NCBI RefSeq assembly: GCF_022012295.1
Contig: NZ_JAKLTN010000001.1
Span: forward strand, 434,001 to 498,000
Length of the DNA stretch: 64,000 nt
Direction: 5' to 3'
Source of the DNA: Dechloromonas hankyongensis
GTDB taxonomy: Bacteria; Pseudomonadota; Gammaproteobacteria; Burkholderiales; Rhodocyclaceae
The notes beneath the pieces are model-generated. The model worked only from the letters and a program-made list of their open reading frames with translations. It did not search any database and was not told where the DNA came from. The translations under genes and the position numbers were made by a program. Shown here piece by piece: positions 27,199 through 32,217 of this stretch (within the stretch, counting starts at the first letter, position 1; each line of letters begins with the position of its first letter).

Positions 27199-27575
27199 TC
27201 CTCCTCCCTCATTCACGTTGTCGAGTGCTATCCGCCATCACGGGCTCGGGCCTTTGTTCTTTGTCTGCATTGTAGCGACATATCCGCTGTTTTTGCGGGG
27301 GGCAGCGCGAGCTTCGCCGGATTCCATGGCTGGTGTTTTTCCTGTCGGCGATCTATCTGTATGGCATGTCTCTTTTTAAAGACAAACAAATTATCTATTA
27401 ATCATAAGCTTGGCAGAAAGCCGGATTTTTCTGTCGTCCCTTTACGACAGCGCCGCACCGGGTAATTTATCGCTTAACGATTAAGCCGTTGATTATGAAT
27501 AAATAAATAATTGGCATATTTGCTGCGCTATTTCATTGGCATCACTCGTTTTTGCTACCTACTCAGGAGACTGAA
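27199..27575. promoter_or_regulatory. AT-rich divergent intergenic region with an inverted repeat
   Basis: This 377-base gap separates the hybrid kinase from the unknown two-gene unit. The right half (about 27370-27530) is strikingly AT-rich for this genome. A perfect 7-bp inverted repeat, CTGTCGT at 27431-27437 and ACGACAG at 27444-27450 with a six-base spacer, is a candidate operator. A GG-N10-GC arrangement at 27514-27527 (TTGGCATATTTGCTGC) is a poor match to a sigma-54 promoter. No RNA gene was seen. Confidence 0.4.
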
Positions 27576-28898
27576 ATGAATGCCAATGAAGAACCGATGG
27601 AAGTGCCGTGTTGTCCGGCGCTGACCAAGGATACCGTTTGCGATGTGCTGGATTTCCACTACCGGACGCGCCACACCACCAACGTGGCGGCCGGCGGGCG
27701 CCGCATCCAGGTCGAGGTGCTGATCCACGCCCGCCTGGAGCGCTGCCCGGGGCCGATGACCCTGGGCGACCTGGTGTACAGCACGACCCTGCTACCTGGC
27801 GAGAAGGTCAGGCTGTTCACCTCCGACCGCCGGACGCGATTCAGCATCGATAGCGAAAGCAAGGTCAGCTATCGCCACGAGCAAACCTCGGAGGAGCGCT
27901 ACTACCTGTCGAGCATGCACGACTTCATGTCCGATGTATCGGTGCGCGATTCGGGCAGTGCGAGTTCGAGCAACAAGGGTTCGGCGCGCGGCCACGGCGA
28001 AACGAGCAGCGCCCTCGGCGCACTTTTTTCCGGGCCGTCGGTCGATGTCAGCGGTTCCTACGACGCCTCGTCGACCTCGTCCTTCCTCCGCGAATTGAGC
28101 CAGCACGCCAGTGCCTCCGATCGTCGCTCCGAGTCGGCGACGCGGGCCGCCAGTTCGGTCTCGGTCGGCGAGGTGTCCAGCCGTTCGCATACCCAGGGCG
28201 AGTCGGAGGACCACCAGGAATCGTCGTCGCGCGAGTTTTCGAACCCCAATCGCTGCCACGCCGTCACCTATTTCTTCTACCAGATCAACAAGACCCAGAC
28301 CGTCAAATTCCGGATTGTCGCCATCCAGCGACGGGTCATCGATCCGGCCGCCGATACGCGCGTGTCGAACAATCCCTTTGCCGCCGACGGCGGCGTATCG
28401 GCCATCCCGAGCGCCGTGCTGGCGACCGATGCCAACCGTCTGAAAGTTGAAAAAATCGGCCGTGACAGCGTGCTCGCCCAACAGGGCGCCGACTTTGCCG
28501 CCGGCGCCAGCCGGGAGGCGGCGAACGTCAACCTGGCCCGCCTGTCGGCCCTGGATACCAATGTGCAGCCGATCTCCCCGGCCCTCAAGGCGCGCGCCCT
28601 GCAGGAGGTCGATCAATCGCTGATCAAGGAGCGCCTGATCGACAAGAACGGCAAGGTGGTCGATGAAGTGGTCAGCGAGCTGTCGTTCGAGCGGGTCAGT
28701 TCCCTGCCGACCCCGGGCCTGCTGGTCAAGGGCTGCCTCGACGAGTGCGACACCTGCGAACCGGCGCTGGAAAAGGCGATCGAGCTGGAGCTGGAACACA
28801 AGCAGCTGCAAAACGAGCTGCTCAAAAAGCAGATCGAGCTGCTCGAAAAGTCGCAGGAATATCGCTGCTGCCCGGTGGCCGAAGCTGCTACCCCTTGA
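27576..28898 (+). CDS. Unknown protein: Ser-rich middle, Cys motifs and C-terminal coiled coil
   Basis: A 440-residue protein that I cannot assign to a family. It has no signal peptide. Residues 1-110 look beta-rich (RIQVEVLIHARLERCPGPMTLG, then LLPGEKVRLFTSDRRTRF). Residues about 125-220 are a low-complexity Ser/Ala/Glu stretch, followed by NRCHAVTYFFYQINKTQTVKFRI. Cysteine motifs occur at both ends: CCP at 12-14, CX3CX2C at 387, 391 and 394 (CLDECDTC), and CCP again at 431-433. Residues about 395-428 (EKAIELELEHKQLQNELLKK) form a coiled coil. The start ATG 27576 follows AGGAG by eight bases. It is 60 bases upstream of another unknown gene on the same strand. Confidence 0.8.
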   Translation: MNANEEPMEVPCCPALTKDTVCDVLDFHYRTRHTTNVAAGGRRIQVEVLIHARLERCPGPMTLGDLVYSTTLLPGEKVRLFTSDRRTRFSIDSESKVSYRHEQTSEERYYLSSMHDFMSDVSVRDSGSASSSNKGSARGHGETSSALGALFSGPSVDVSGSYDASSTSSFLRELSQHASASDRRSESATRAASSVSVGEVSSRSHTQGESEDHQESSSREFSNPNRCHAVTYFFYQINKTQTVKFRIVAIQRRVIDPAADTRVSNNPFAADGGVSAIPSAVLATDANRLKVEKIGRDSVLAQQGADFAAGASREAANVNLARLSALDTNVQPISPALKARALQEVDQSLIKERLIDKNGKVVDEVVSELSFERVSSLPTPGLLVKGCLDECDTCEPALEKAIELELEHKQLQNELLKKQIELLEKSQEYRCCPVAEAATP

Positions 28899-28958
28899 GT
28901 TTCTGGTTAGCCCAATTTTGTGTAGCAAACCCGGTATTCAACTCCTGGAGGTTTAGCC

Positions 28959-31070
28959 ATGAATGACGAATTGAAGAAGGCGGTTACCAAGTCGAAAGCC
29001 GTGATGGTCGGCCCCTACGCCAACGAGCGCGAGAAGTACAAGGCGCTCCTGTTGAGCAATCCCAATTACTTCGGCTCGCTGCAAAAGAGCCCGTTCAAAC
29101 CGGTGCTGCCGCTGGCCGGCAATACCTATTACGAAGAACTGGTCTGCGTCGGCTACCAGCCGCAGCAGCAACGGCTGGAAGGCGTCGTGCACATCTACCA
29201 GCCGTCGGGCTACGGCAGCGGCCTGTGCGGCGCCGGCAGCACCGAGTACGTGCGCTTCTACCTGTCGTTCGATCAGGGCGCGACCTGGGTCGATCAGGGC
29301 CTGACCAGCTTCCAGGCCTGGAATGTCCCGCAGGGCACCGACGGCAGCAAGCGGCTGGAGTACGCCGTGCAACTGCCGGTCTCGCCGAGCCGCCACTTCT
29401 GCTTCCTGGGGGCGCACCTGATCCGGGTGCGCGCCATCCTGTCGTGGAGCGCGCCGCCGCCGCCCAACCAGCCCAACTGGAACCCGCCCTGGGGCAATCA
29501 TCGCGACGCGACGATACAGGTCGAGCCGCGCCGCTTCTTTACCGGCAAGGAGATCTTCACCGCCGCTAAGATCAAATTGCCGCCGGTGCTCAAAGAGGTG
29601 CTCGATCTCGATCTGCCGCTACCGTCCAAAACGCCCGGCCTCGCAGCCCCCGAGCTGGCCGTGCACTACAAGGCGGCGGGCATTCCGGCCCACCGCTTCG
29701 CGTTCAAGGAAATGCACGCGCTGACCGCCGGCCCGCAGGCCTTCAGCGGCGAACTGGCCGCCCAGTTGCTGCCCGGCATCGAGATTTCGCCCAATATCGG
29801 CGATCTGCTCTTTCCGAAAACCGACGGCGACACCAGCTATGAAGAGCTCACCTGCATCGGTCTCGATCCGAACAGCCCCGATACCCTGGTCGGCGTCGTC
29901 AAGATCAAACGCAGCCAGGGCTATTCCGGCGGGCCGTGCACGGCGGGCAGCCCCGAGTACGTCTCGTGGTGGGCCGATTTCGACGGCAACGGCAGTTTCG
30001 AAAGCTTCCTCGGCACGGCGCAGGTGACGGTTTACGACCTGGCCAGCACACCGGCCGATGGCGTGCATTACGCGGTACGCCTGCCGGTCGATTTGTCTGC
30101 CCAGCGCAAGCGCTGCCAGGAGGGGCCGGTGGTCGTGCGCGTGCGCGCCATCCTGTCGTGGAACGTCCCGGTGCCGGGCAATGCCCCGAATCAGGTGCCG
30201 GCCTGGGGCAATCGCGAAGAAACGCTGATCCACATCGCGCCGCTCGGGGCAGTGCATGCGCCGGCCGGCAAGATCGCCATCCTCGGCGGCATCCCGGTCA
30301 GCATGATCGACGACGCCAGCGGCATGACCACGCCCGATGCGGTGTTTGCGCTGAACAATGCAGCGGTCGGCGGCGGTTGCCCGTTCGGCGCGGCGGTGAC
30401 CGTGCAGGGGGCGCCTTTGCCGGTCGGCTATACCTACACGATCGAGGTCACGCCTGAGGGGAGTGGCGTCCCGACGCCGGTGCTGACCGAACTGACGCTG
30501 ACCCGCCAGGACGGAACGACCTACAAGCTCAATGCCAATCCGCTGACCCAGCGCTTCCCGTACCAGGCGTTTACCGACAACGTCAATGCCTTGCTCGGGC
30601 ATTGGGATACGGCCGGCGACGCACGCTGGACCGTGGCGCTGAGCAGCTACGACCCGGGCGGCAACTACCTCGGCACCGACACGCAGCTGATCCAGCTCGA
30701 CAACACCGGGCCGAGCACCAGCATCGACATCACGACCGGTACCGGCAATTGCGGCAAATTCCCGACCGGTTCGCTGATCGGCGGCAATTTTGTCGCCCGC
30801 GACCTGCACCTGCTCAGCTATTCGATCGGCGTCAAGCCGCCCGGACTCAACGATCCTGGGGAAGCGGTCACGGTGCCGAGTGCGGGTTACTCGAACACCG
30901 CCGTCACCGGCGATGCCTGGTCGCTAGACACCACCGGCATGGTCAATTGCGGCTATGTGGTCGAACTGGTGGTGCGCGACCGGACCATCGTCGCCAGCCA
31001 GAGTCAGGGGTGGAATGGCTCGGCCAGCGTGGGCTTCTGCCTGGAGTCCGTAGCCGACGGCAACGACTGA
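28959..31070 (+). CDS. Unknown protein with a duplicated Cys-containing module and an Ig-like C-terminal part
   Basis: A 703-residue protein that I do not recognise. Two homologous modules cover about 56-189 and 292-428. Each starts YEEL.C.G, continues with a G..C.AGS.EYV strand followed by an aromatic D-rich strand, and ends with RVRAILSW...WGN. Three cysteines per module correspond (63, 90, 148 and 299, 327, 386). The remaining C-terminal half is beta-rich (YTIEVTPEGSGVPTPVLTELTL; TGPSTSIDITTGTGNCG) and Ig-like. No signal peptide or lipobox is visible, so either it is cytoplasmic or it is exported by a non-Sec route. A good GGAGG lies eight bases before ATG 28959. The strong terminator after it closes the two-gene unit. 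Confidence 0.8.
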   Translation: MNDELKKAVTKSKAVMVGPYANEREKYKALLLSNPNYFGSLQKSPFKPVLPLAGNTYYEELVCVGYQPQQQRLEGVVHIYQPSGYGSGLCGAGSTEYVRFYLSFDQGATWVDQGLTSFQAWNVPQGTDGSKRLEYAVQLPVSPSRHFCFLGAHLIRVRAILSWSAPPPPNQPNWNPPWGNHRDATIQVEPRRFFTGKEIFTAAKIKLPPVLKEVLDLDLPLPSKTPGLAAPELAVHYKAAGIPAHRFAFKEMHALTAGPQAFSGELAAQLLPGIEISPNIGDLLFPKTDGDTSYEELTCIGLDPNSPDTLVGVVKIKRSQGYSGGPCTAGSPEYVSWWADFDGNGSFESFLGTAQVTVYDLASTPADGVHYAVRLPVDLSAQRKRCQEGPVVVRVRAILSWNVPVPGNAPNQVPAWGNREETLIHIAPLGAVHAPAGKIAILGGIPVSMIDDASGMTTPDAVFALNNAAVGGGCPFGAAVTVQGAPLPVGYTYTIEVTPEGSGVPTPVLTELTLTRQDGTTYKLNANPLTQRFPYQAFTDNVNALLGHWDTAGDARWTVALSSYDPGGNYLGTDTQLIQLDNTGPSTSIDITTGTGNCGKFPTGSLIGGNFVARDLHLLSYSIGVKPPGLNDPGEAVTVPSAGYSNTAVTGDAWSLDTTGMVNCGYVVELVVRDRTIVASQSQGWNGSASVGFCLESVADGND

Positions 31071-31088
31071 GGGCCGGCCTGCGGTCCA

Positions 31089-31128
31089 GCCTCCCGGTTC
31101 AGTCAGGACGGAGCCGGGAGGCTTTTTT
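31089..31128 (+). terminator. Rho-independent terminator of the unknown two-gene unit
   Basis: GCCTCCCGG (31089-31097) pairs perfectly with CCGGGAGGC (31114-31122) and is followed by six T residues (31123-31128). It starts 18 bases after the stop of the 703-residue gene. Confidence 0.88.
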
Positions 31129-31176
31129 GCGACCGGGGGGCGCTATATCGGCCGTGCCGACAGATAGGTTGCTAGC

Positions 31177-32217
31177 CTATTCGACGACCGAGATATCCGG
31201 CGTCTGGCCGAGGTATTCGAGGCGCTTGTTCAGCGCCGCGGTGACGAAGATGCGGTTGTCGCGGTCCACGCGTAGGACGAGGCCGACGTCCATCTTGCGC
31301 GCCATGTCGCGCCAGGCGTCCGGCCCGGCGATGAAAATGGGTTTTGAACTGGCGTCGGACAGCGTCCCGGCCTTGGGGCCGGCCGGAATCAGCACGGTGA
31401 CCGCTTGCGTGTGGCTGGCCGGGCGACCGCTGCGCGGGTCGAGCAGGTGCGGGTAGCGCTGGCCGTCGACTTCGAAGTAGCGCTGGTAGTCGCCCGAGGT
31501 GCCAATGGCTTCGCCGTCGTCGAGACTCACGGTGGCGAGCGGGCCGGGCTGGCGCGGGTGCTGGATACCGACCCGCCATTTCTTGCCTTGCTTGCTGCCC
31601 AGCGCCATGACGTTGCCGCCGATGTTGATTAGCGCATTGTGGATGCCCAGTTGGCGCAGGATGGCGGCAGCGCGGTCGAGGGCGACCCCCTTCAGGTAGC
31701 CGCCGAAATCGAGGGCGACCTGGCGGTTGCGGCTCTTTACCGTGTCGCCATCGACGGCGATATCGGCAATCGACGGTTTGCTGGCCAGCCAGGCCTTGAT
31801 GTCGGCGGCGGGCGGCAGTTCCGTCCTGAATTCGTCGGACTGGAATCCCCACAGCTTGATCAGGCGGCCGATGCCGGGATCGAACAGGTAATCGCCCTGC
31901 TTGGACAGCGCCTGGGCTTCGCGGACGAAGCCGGCCAGCTCGGGGCTGACGGTGTGCGGCTGGCCGGCGGCGATGGCGTCGTTGAGGGCGCTCAGTTCCG
32001 ACGGTTGCCAGGCGTGATAGGCGCGGTGCAGGCGATCGAATTCGCGCAGTACGGCGGCGATGGCCTGGCGGCCCTGGGCGGGATCGTCGCCGACGACGAT
32101 GACTTCGACGCGGGTGCCGAAGACGTAGGCCTGCTGCTCCTGCAGCGGCGTGCGGCCGCAGGCGGCCAGGAGCAGGGCGAAGACGCCGAGCAGGACGAGT
32201 TTCAGGCCAGGCCGCAT
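31177..32217 (-). CDS. apbE: FAD:protein FMN transferase ApbE (lipoprotein)
   Basis: A 346-residue lipoprotein that attaches FMN to threonine residues of target flavoproteins such as Nqr/Rnf subunits. The signal peptide ends with LLLAAC (lipid Cys20). ApbE motifs include AYVFGTRVEV near the N-terminus, FDPGIGRLIKLWGF, LDFGGYLKGVALDRA, NIGGNVMALG, IGTSGDYQRYF, LLDPRSGRPA and the metal-site-like LSDASSKPIFI. ATG 32217 is chosen because it gives the lipoprotein signal and overlaps the gshB stop by 16 bases; the frame is open much further upstream, but that part is antisense-quality translation through gshB. No nqr or rnf genes are adjacent. Confidence 0.93.
   Translation of the reverse strand: MRPGLKLVLLGVFALLLAACGRTPLQEQQAYVFGTRVEVIVVGDDPAQGRQAIAAVLREFDRLHRAYHAWQPSELSALNDAIAAGQPHTVSPELAGFVREAQALSKQGDYLFDPGIGRLIKLWGFQSDEFRTELPPAADIKAWLASKPSIADIAVDGDTVKSRNRQVALDFGGYLKGVALDRAAAILRQLGIHNALINIGGNVMALGSKQGKKWRVGIQHPRQPGPLATVSLDDGEAIGTSGDYQRYFEVDGQRYPHLLDPRSGRPASHTQAVTVLIPAGPKAGTLSDASSKPIFIAGPDAWRDMARKMDVGLVLRVDRDNRIFVTAALNKRLEYLGQTPDISVVE

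Follow-up and report, generated by a model that had tools for sequence, protein, structure and literature searches.

Architecture and relationships of the G1-G2 cassette of Dechloromonas hankyongensis, a two-gene unit with a sigma-54 promoter of the GlrR/QseF-target type

Two regulatory systems have been described that come close to the locus considered here, a pair of adjacent genes, G1 and G2, in a stretch of 64,000 nucleotides (the window) from the betaproteobacterium Dechloromonas hankyongensis. For GlrR/QseF, the parts of PMC8745638 and PMC4987338 that treat the binding site give the consensus TGTC(N)10GACA. The corresponding part of PMC6075780 describes three upstream activating sequences before glmY with the consensus TGTN12ACA, assistance by IHF, and a signal that likely comes from the envelope. 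For PrsR, the portion of Haft 2006 (PMC1569441) that deals with its sites gives a motif 1 of 17 nt with the 3′ end TTTACA.

In this report, the promoter, the family and the surroundings of the two genes are analyzed. The reading that we prefer, and to which we give about an even chance, is that of an envelope-controlled scaffold, G1, with a swappable partner, the two forming a cassette of a cell-envelope response. A preliminary description made from the letters of the window had reported two adjacent plus-strand genes of 440 and 703 residues, 60 bases apart; the coordinates of the open reading frames (ORFs) agree with it, and the junction of 60 bases is kept in a second genome, G047.

Promoter architecture and proposed GlrR-type control

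The promoter of G1 is laid out like those of GlrR/QseF targets, with a sigma-54 site downstream of paired TGTC-N10-GACA sites (Table 1). In the window, sites 1 and 2 lie 65 base pairs (bp) apart and the −24/−12 promoter 80 bp further. IHF binds at the consensus WATCAANNNNTTR. In all seven loci with the enhancer pair, an IHF-like site with one mismatch lies at a distance of 33 bp from the site 1 start, a count made without a shuffle control. Allowing up to one mismatch in each site, seven of the ten G1 loci show the complete layout, with spacings of 64-66 bp and then 80-82 bp, compared to 2 of 30,000 dinucleotide shuffles, a contrast tempered by the relatedness of the seven loci and by the choice of the test windows (55-75 and 60-100 bp) after the loci had been seen. 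These seven loci form one clade (100/99 support) that includes all three kinds of partner gene described below, and their upstream regions gave no blastn alignment between partner kinds at E ≤ 0.01. No sigma-70-type match was found in the G1 promoter region.

All 23 distinct exact TGTCGN8CGACA sites of two genomes, the window's and G047, were examined. A partner at 65-66 bp together with a sigma-54 site was found only before G1 in the window's genome and before a bactofilin gene in both genomes; for one further site of the 23, a partner with one mismatch lies at 75 bp, and no promoter accompanies it. The sites before G1 in G047 are of the TGTCT type and lie outside the 23, and their arrangement is the same. 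The bactofilin gene is divergent from an operon with genes for a kinase and an NtrC-type regulator and, between them, an ORF of up to 231 residues, and is followed by a gene for a FeeM-type N-acyl amino acid synthase. The regions concerned (L117:2834-7749 and L121:1550-6469) hold, besides the bactofilin and FeeM-type genes, two TGTC-N10-GACA sites with a spacing of 66 bp and a sigma-54 promoter. With the hallmark of the regulon present, namely TGTC-N10-GACA sites upstream of a sigma-54 promoter, a GlrR-type regulon outside the enterobacteria that takes in the bactofilin and FeeM-type genes is likely, and the predicted regulation of the cassette by a GlrR-like envelope system is well supported by sequence. 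A limited literature search brought up no paper that treats GlrR and bactofilin together.

Several observations weaken the case for such control and, with it, the scaffold reading. First, the sigma-54 pattern by itself occurs at chance level (one match in the window, 0.92 expected), and the promoter case therefore rests on the combination. Second, TGTCGN8CGACA is about twice as frequent as its reversed control in the two genomes (14 vs 6 and 9 vs 5); since the control pattern also gives 6 and 5, many single sites must be due to chance. Third, the remaining three of the ten G1 loci (L010-L012) do not have the arrangement. Fourth, the best NCBIfam match of the regulator beside the bactofilin gene is GlrR, at 597.5 bits and thus below the equivalog cut-off of 763, the kinase of that operon has no GlrK/QseE model among the matches listed (the best is CreC, far below cut-off), and its ORF has no NCBIfam match. 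Because kinase and ORF are without a supporting match, the parallel with glrK-qseG-glrR rests on the gene order and the regulator. Finally, the paired sites are absent upstream of all nine long superfamily genes examined, which assigns GlrR-type control to the G1 clade and not to the superfamily introduced in the next section.

G1 as the compact core of an unnamed superfamily

G1 is a compact stand-alone core of a wide, unnamed superfamily that has no curated model in the libraries searched. Neither G1 nor G2 passed a curated cut-off in Pfam or NCBIfam. PHROGs gave nothing for either gene, PADLOC had no match to them at E ≤ 1, profile searches of PDB sequences returned nothing credible (best E 0.088), and searches of plasmids, phages and viral contigs with G1 and G2 found no relative. 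The preliminary description had found no known family for either protein, which stands as far as curated models go, but G1 is no orphan. Its suggestions of a defence-related pair and of a part of an injection-like particle found no support, and neither did a phage part, given the empty PADLOC and PHROGs results and the lack of any G1 or G2 relative in phage records or viral contigs.

The window's own genome holds a weak second match to G1 (E 3.6e-9) in a protein of 1666 residues, whose P0003 domain led to 31 plasmid records, among them records from Streptomyces, Embleya, Nostoc, Ruegeria, Psychrobacter and haloarchaea. Twelve long proteins of 1023-1756 residues from bacteria and haloarchaea were taken, including the window genome's own and three ORFs that we picked in unannotated records. 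The signature of the superfamily is a Ser-rich core, LGDLxYS…PGE…NxNxCHA, followed by a second block, LPTxG…. At E ≤ 1e-3, a profile made from G1 homologues only matched 7 of the 12 long proteins, the best of them at 7e-15; the remaining five, like all 252 reversed or locally shuffled decoys, gave no match at E ≤ 10. An hhalign comparison of G1 with the 12 long members over G1 residues 49-258 gave a probability of 98.4 (E 5.8e-15), and a model built without G1 recovers G1 in the genome at 1.1e-16. In the 12-row superfamily alignment that served for the hhalign comparison (A4), L023 replaces L035.

G1 carries the core pattern LGxLxYS..PGE ... NxNxCHA and, collinear after it, the second block, which is aligned in L031, L018, L025 and L030; by an eye-guided pattern this block can be traced in 13 long proteins, in a degenerate form in L027, L028, L033 and L035. 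At 440 residues, G1 has neither the large size nor the extra N- and C-terminal domains of the long members. Among 398 Pseudomonadota genomes, the G1 profile (A1) matched one and the superfamily model A4 five, with the window's own counted both times. A search of nine other G1 genomes with A4 brought up G1 alone, without a long member. A second short member (L043:8436-9719, 427 residues, genome G191) has neighbours different from those of G1 and resembles G1 by eye in its layout of core and coiled coil; it lies on the same strand as unassigned ORFs of 107, 279 and 265 residues (L043:6810-10093), which may be a partner set of its own. The long core is also encoded on an unverified "Bacteriophage sp." fecal scaffold (L046, MT835996.1), possibly bacterial DNA.

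Nine long members were scanned for further domains. Two have a wall-hydrolase-type C-terminal domain above the Pfam cut-off, one a GH25 domain (E 7e-26) and the other a DUF2272 domain (E 3e-15), which we take to have a role in wall hydrolysis. A third has a slightly sub-threshold OmpA domain, and L029 and L030 have ends that look lysozyme-like by eye. The window genome's long member (L018:5924-10924; G000:C1, minus strand), with its GH25 muramidase end, lies near genes that appear by eye to be of cobalamin type. In L035:4991-10806, a pre-toxin TG domain protein is encoded directly after a haloarchaeal long member.

The GH25 and DUF2272 ends, the variability of the C-terminal parts and the pre-toxin TG neighbour are what an antibacterial or polymorphic-toxin-like system would show, in which G1 would be the carrier module and the neighbouring gene the effector or an accessory. 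We consider this explanation unlikely, as no Pfam toxin or immunity domain was found in G1, G2 or one member each of the partner kinds B and C, and GlrR-type envelope control better suits work on the cell's own envelope. Moreover, haloarchaea do not have murein of the bacterial kind, and the members they encode would have none of their own to act on. The gene after G2 is apbE, on the opposite strand, so that no small immunity-like gene follows.

G1 has ten Cys residues, at positions 12, 13, 22, 57, 227, 387, 391, 394, 431 and 432, all invariant in an alignment of G1 with nine homologues (70-94% identity). Because of this invariance, the CCP (12-14), CX3CX2C (387-394) and second CCP (431-433) motifs pointed out in the preliminary description are conserved and not a chance pattern; its Ser-rich linker was also borne out, residues 120-225 being 31% Ser, as was the presence of every other motif that it listed. 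The CX3CX2C triplet lies in the recurring LPTxG block, and its last two Cys (GxCxxCE) are both present in 6 of 13 long members. The ratios of nonsynonymous to synonymous substitution rates (0.07 and 0.08 for G1, 0.15 and 0.27 for G2; two pairs per gene, codons with gaps or N dropped) indicate purifying selection on both genes.

Such cysteines could also be the working site of a cytoplasmic metal- or redox-active stress complex with G2 as its client. Besides the ten invariant positions, it could draw on the lack of a visible signal peptide on either protein and on the placement of the unit in G047 and L005 near a gene set that, judged from its sequences, is bufferin-like and presumably metal-related. 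Of the last two triplet Cys, however, one only is present in 3 of the 13 long members and neither in 4, so that chemistry based on Cys would not be a general property; the promoter looks to be of the envelope type, and the neighbours in the window differ. This explanation is quite unlikely in our judgment.

Partner genes and insertion of the cassette

Three kinds of large protein, unrelated to one another, are encoded after G1, and G2 is the first of these kinds. The survey covered ten G1 genomes, with G023 and L009 counted once; eight of the G1 homologues come from records that are uncultured or metagenome-assembled by title, and the assignment of L012 to Chlorobi may be a binning error. G2, the partner of kind A, adjoins G1 in three of the ten (the window's genome, G047 and L005, where a contig end splits the gene into two pieces). 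Partner B, of 712-717 residues, starts 84-112 bp after G1 in L006, L007 and L008 and is present in those three of the 11 genomes searched. Partner C, of 727 residues, lies 583 bp after G1 in L009 (one of ten, seen as the adjoining gene). The three kinds have no convincing mutual similarity: between A and B, a single alignment of 18 columns was obtained (E 0.18, probability 0.3), between A and C weak alignments only (best E 0.084, probability 0.7), and B with C gave a probability of 48. A C-terminal module common to all three, seemingly marked by an "xDN.P" segment by eye, was not confirmed by profile comparison and is not claimed. When the partners are placed on the G1 tree, A falls in the window's clade and on the deep L011 branch, and B and C in the sister clade. 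This distribution suggests that the partner gene of G1 was replaced during evolution.

A DUF1360 gene follows the partner in L006 and L008, partly in L007 (22 residues matched), and follows G1 directly in L012; it was rejected as a member of the unit because the window's genome has none. In G496, where G2 (62% identical) is on a different contig from G1, it lies a few kilobases (kb) from a cluster that by eye is of the apbE/gshA type (L061:1-7514). A cluster of this type also flanks the cassette in the window, which may be a coincidence.

The preliminary description had proposed to survey whether the homologues always co-occur. G2 adjoins G1 in three genomes and is unlinked in one more, and the two are not an obligate adjacent pair. 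Their loose association raises the possibility of two unrelated accessory genes that travel together and have no joint function, for which it can be said that G2 was not found in six of the ten G1 genomes, is unlinked in another, and that the partners are mutually unrelated. Set against this, full-length G2 was found in 2 of 100 relatives, both with G1, itself present in only 3 of the 100. Two further G2 genomes, one with G2 unlinked, turned up among eight G1 genomes, though the G2 module profile (A5) matches just one of 398 Pseudomonadota genomes, the window's own; the two do not count as independent evidence, since they came to light in a search of G1 genomes. The shared promoter, the junction kept in G047 and the terminator likewise speak for a unit, and the absence of joint function appears quite improbable.

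G2 itself contains the repeated module noted in the preliminary description: residues 45-200 and 280-432, each of about 150 residues, are 39% identical and bear patterns of their own, YEExxCxG and RAILSW...P.WGN. Single modules of this type occur in secreted-looking proteins of G079 and G090, genomes in which G1 was not found. Both of these single-module relatives have signal-peptide-like N-termini by eye, with the hydropathy computed for one. A crude hydropathy scan of the first 60 residues revealed no Sec signal on G1 or G2, in agreement with the preliminary description; the best 19-residue means were 0.57 for G1 and 0.02 for G2, compared to 1.71 for the secreted-looking relative. That G2 may be a surface or secreted beta-rich protein, as had been proposed, is plausible in view of these relatives and a sub-threshold GEVED match.

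The cassette is one inserted unit of about 3.9 kb, and it behaves as a single insertion between a histidine kinase gene and apbE, as expected of the self-contained unit that the preliminary description saw. A search for apbE was positive in 69 of 76 congeneric genomes (counting the window's), and the best 30 loci, 29 besides the window's, were compared. The kinase gene adjoins apbE in 25 of the 29, with 86-192 bp (median 109) from kinase start to apbE end; in the other four, a Sir2-like gene stands at that place (three loci) or the contig is short (one). Neither G1 nor G2 was found in any of the 29. On the left, blastn similarity runs to about 27210 in most loci and to about 27285 in three; on the right, it sets in again near 31182. 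In G047 the kinase-apbE pair is intact, and the cassette stands at a separate place near a bufferin-like operon. The cassette was probably acquired horizontally; beside it in the window we noticed no gene for an integrase or transposase, without having searched for one specifically. The strong terminator of the preliminary description folds as stably as it had supposed (Table 1), and its absence from the list of a simple terminator scan goes with that scan's loop limit of 3-8.

Upstream of G1 in G047 (L019:3312-6212), and apparently also in L005 (2144-3371), are genes for a bufferin-like small secreted protein and an extracytoplasmic function (ECF) sigma factor that the window does not have. 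The ECF sigma domains in G047 were identified by Pfam, while the names bufferin-like and, for further genes in G047, DUF692/DUF2063-type are our presumptions from the sequences.

Table 1. Features of the G1-G2 cassette in the window
Feature	Position	Strand	Remarks
Whole inserted cassette	27290..31175	.	Left edge about 27210-27290, right edge near 31175-31182
Enhancer-like site 1, TGTCTCTTTTTAAAGACA	27367..27384	+	TGTC-N10-GACA; GlrR consensus of PMC4987338
IHF-like site, AATCATAAGCTTG	27400..27412	+	Between the enhancers; one mismatch to WATCAANNNNTTR
Enhancer-like site 2, TGTCGTCCCTTTACGACA	27432..27449	+	TGTC-N10-GACA; consensus match
Sigma-54 −24/−12 promoter, TGGCATATTTGCTGCG	27512..27527	+	80-82 bp past the site 2 start (7 loci)
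G1	27576..28898	+	440 residues; compact stand-alone member of the unnamed superfamily
G1 core	27720..28349	+	Residues 49-258: LGDLVYS..LLPGE, Ser-rich stretch, NPNRCHAVTY; hhalign against 12 long members
G1 second superfamily block	28698..28763	+	Residues 375-396, SLPTPG...GC...C..CE; holds the CX3CX2C triplet
G1 C-terminal coiled-coil-like segment, then second CCP motif	28767..28865	+	Sequence reading
G2	28959..31070	+	703 residues; partner of kind A
G2 module 1	29091..29558	+	Residues 45-200
G2 module 2	29796..30254	+	Residues 280-432; sub-threshold GEVED match
Intrinsic terminator	31088..31128	+	Folding −27.5 kcal/mol (z −4.4), equalled by none of 200 shuffles

Proposed role and comparison with known systems

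In the preferred reading, an envelope signal would act on a GlrR-like activator which, helped by IHF bending, would turn on G1 and G2 together with bactofilin. G1 would then form a cytoplasmic or envelope-bound scaffold, with the Ser-rich core and the coiled coil serving oligomerisation and the conserved Cys holding the scaffold together or binding metal. It may carry or anchor the beta-rich G2 in the way in which long members carry their C-terminal domains covalently. The partner would supply the working or surface-binding function, by binding or by modifying, and could for this reason be swapped while G1 is kept. The scaffold role is suggested by analogy with the fused long members and by the retention of G1 while its partner changes.

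The protein side of this reading also has its weak points. The scaffold, oligomer and carrier roles of G1 are putative, and a wall-hydrolase-type domain is present in only two of the nine long members scanned. G1 and G2 are unlinked in G496, and no large partner was seen after G1 in L012 or in L010 (1.8 kb of downstream DNA), nor were G2 and partner B found elsewhere in these two genomes. A common role for partners A, B and C is an assumption, as no convincing similarity exists among them. The lack of a Sec signal on G2 in the crude scan is a difficulty for a surface placement.

A wider form of the idea, which we put forward tentatively and regard as doubtful, is that G1 might be the minimal form of an undescribed carrier superfamily whose proteins build an envelope structure and display or deliver interchangeable payloads. 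In the long members these payloads would be fused C-terminally, and in the short ones an exchangeable gene next door would encode them, the whole being switched on with bactofilin under GlrR-type control in the G1 clade.

The observations have practical implications. A superfamily that the curated libraries searched do not cover now has a recognisable signature, and a stand-alone G1 of 440 residues should be far easier to express and to solve structurally than members of 1023-1756 residues. In addition, the G1 promoter yields an immediate and cheap hypothesis, GlrR/sigma-54 envelope control, and a GlrR-type regulon beyond the enterobacteria, comprising bactofilin and G1-G2, is suggested.

Compared to known protein families, G1 has a Ser-rich stretch in common with the NCBIfam serine-rich protein subfamily NF033849, the only NCBIfam model that it touches; it is not a member, however, its score being 9.2 bits (E 0.16; cut-off 650). 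For G2, positions 1-58 of the 78 of the GEVED domain (PF20009) align with module 2, but the score of 20.6 bits stays below the Pfam gathering threshold of 24.4, and the G2 modules have their own patterns.

Compared to the PEP-CTERM/PrsK-PrsR system, as far as the relevant portion of PMC1569441 describes it, the locus is similar in that an activator motif, sometimes repeated in that system, precedes a sigma-54 site; that system, too, belongs to environmental proteobacteria. PrsR/PEP-CTERM control was nevertheless set aside: the sites here end in GACA and not in the TTTACA given there, and the adjoining regulator scores 383 bits against 502.6 (TIGR02915), in a test that covered the regulator beside the matching sites and the 3′ end of the motif, and neither the full logo nor a PrsR elsewhere.

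Compared to the GlrR/QseF (glmY-type) regulon of Enterobacteriaceae, the cassette has the same TGTC-N10-GACA sites above a −24/−12 promoter, an IHF-like site and an envelope theme, and the operon beside the bactofilin gene has the same order of kinase, small ORF and NtrC-type regulator. The two differ in three respects. First, the targets there are glmY or rpoE and here a bactofilin gene and the G1-G2 cassette. Second, three sites are reported for glmY in the part of its description cited above, in contrast to two sites 64-66 bp apart here. Third, the host there is enterobacterial, whereas here it is a betaproteobacterium whose regulator scores below the GlrR equivalog cut-off.

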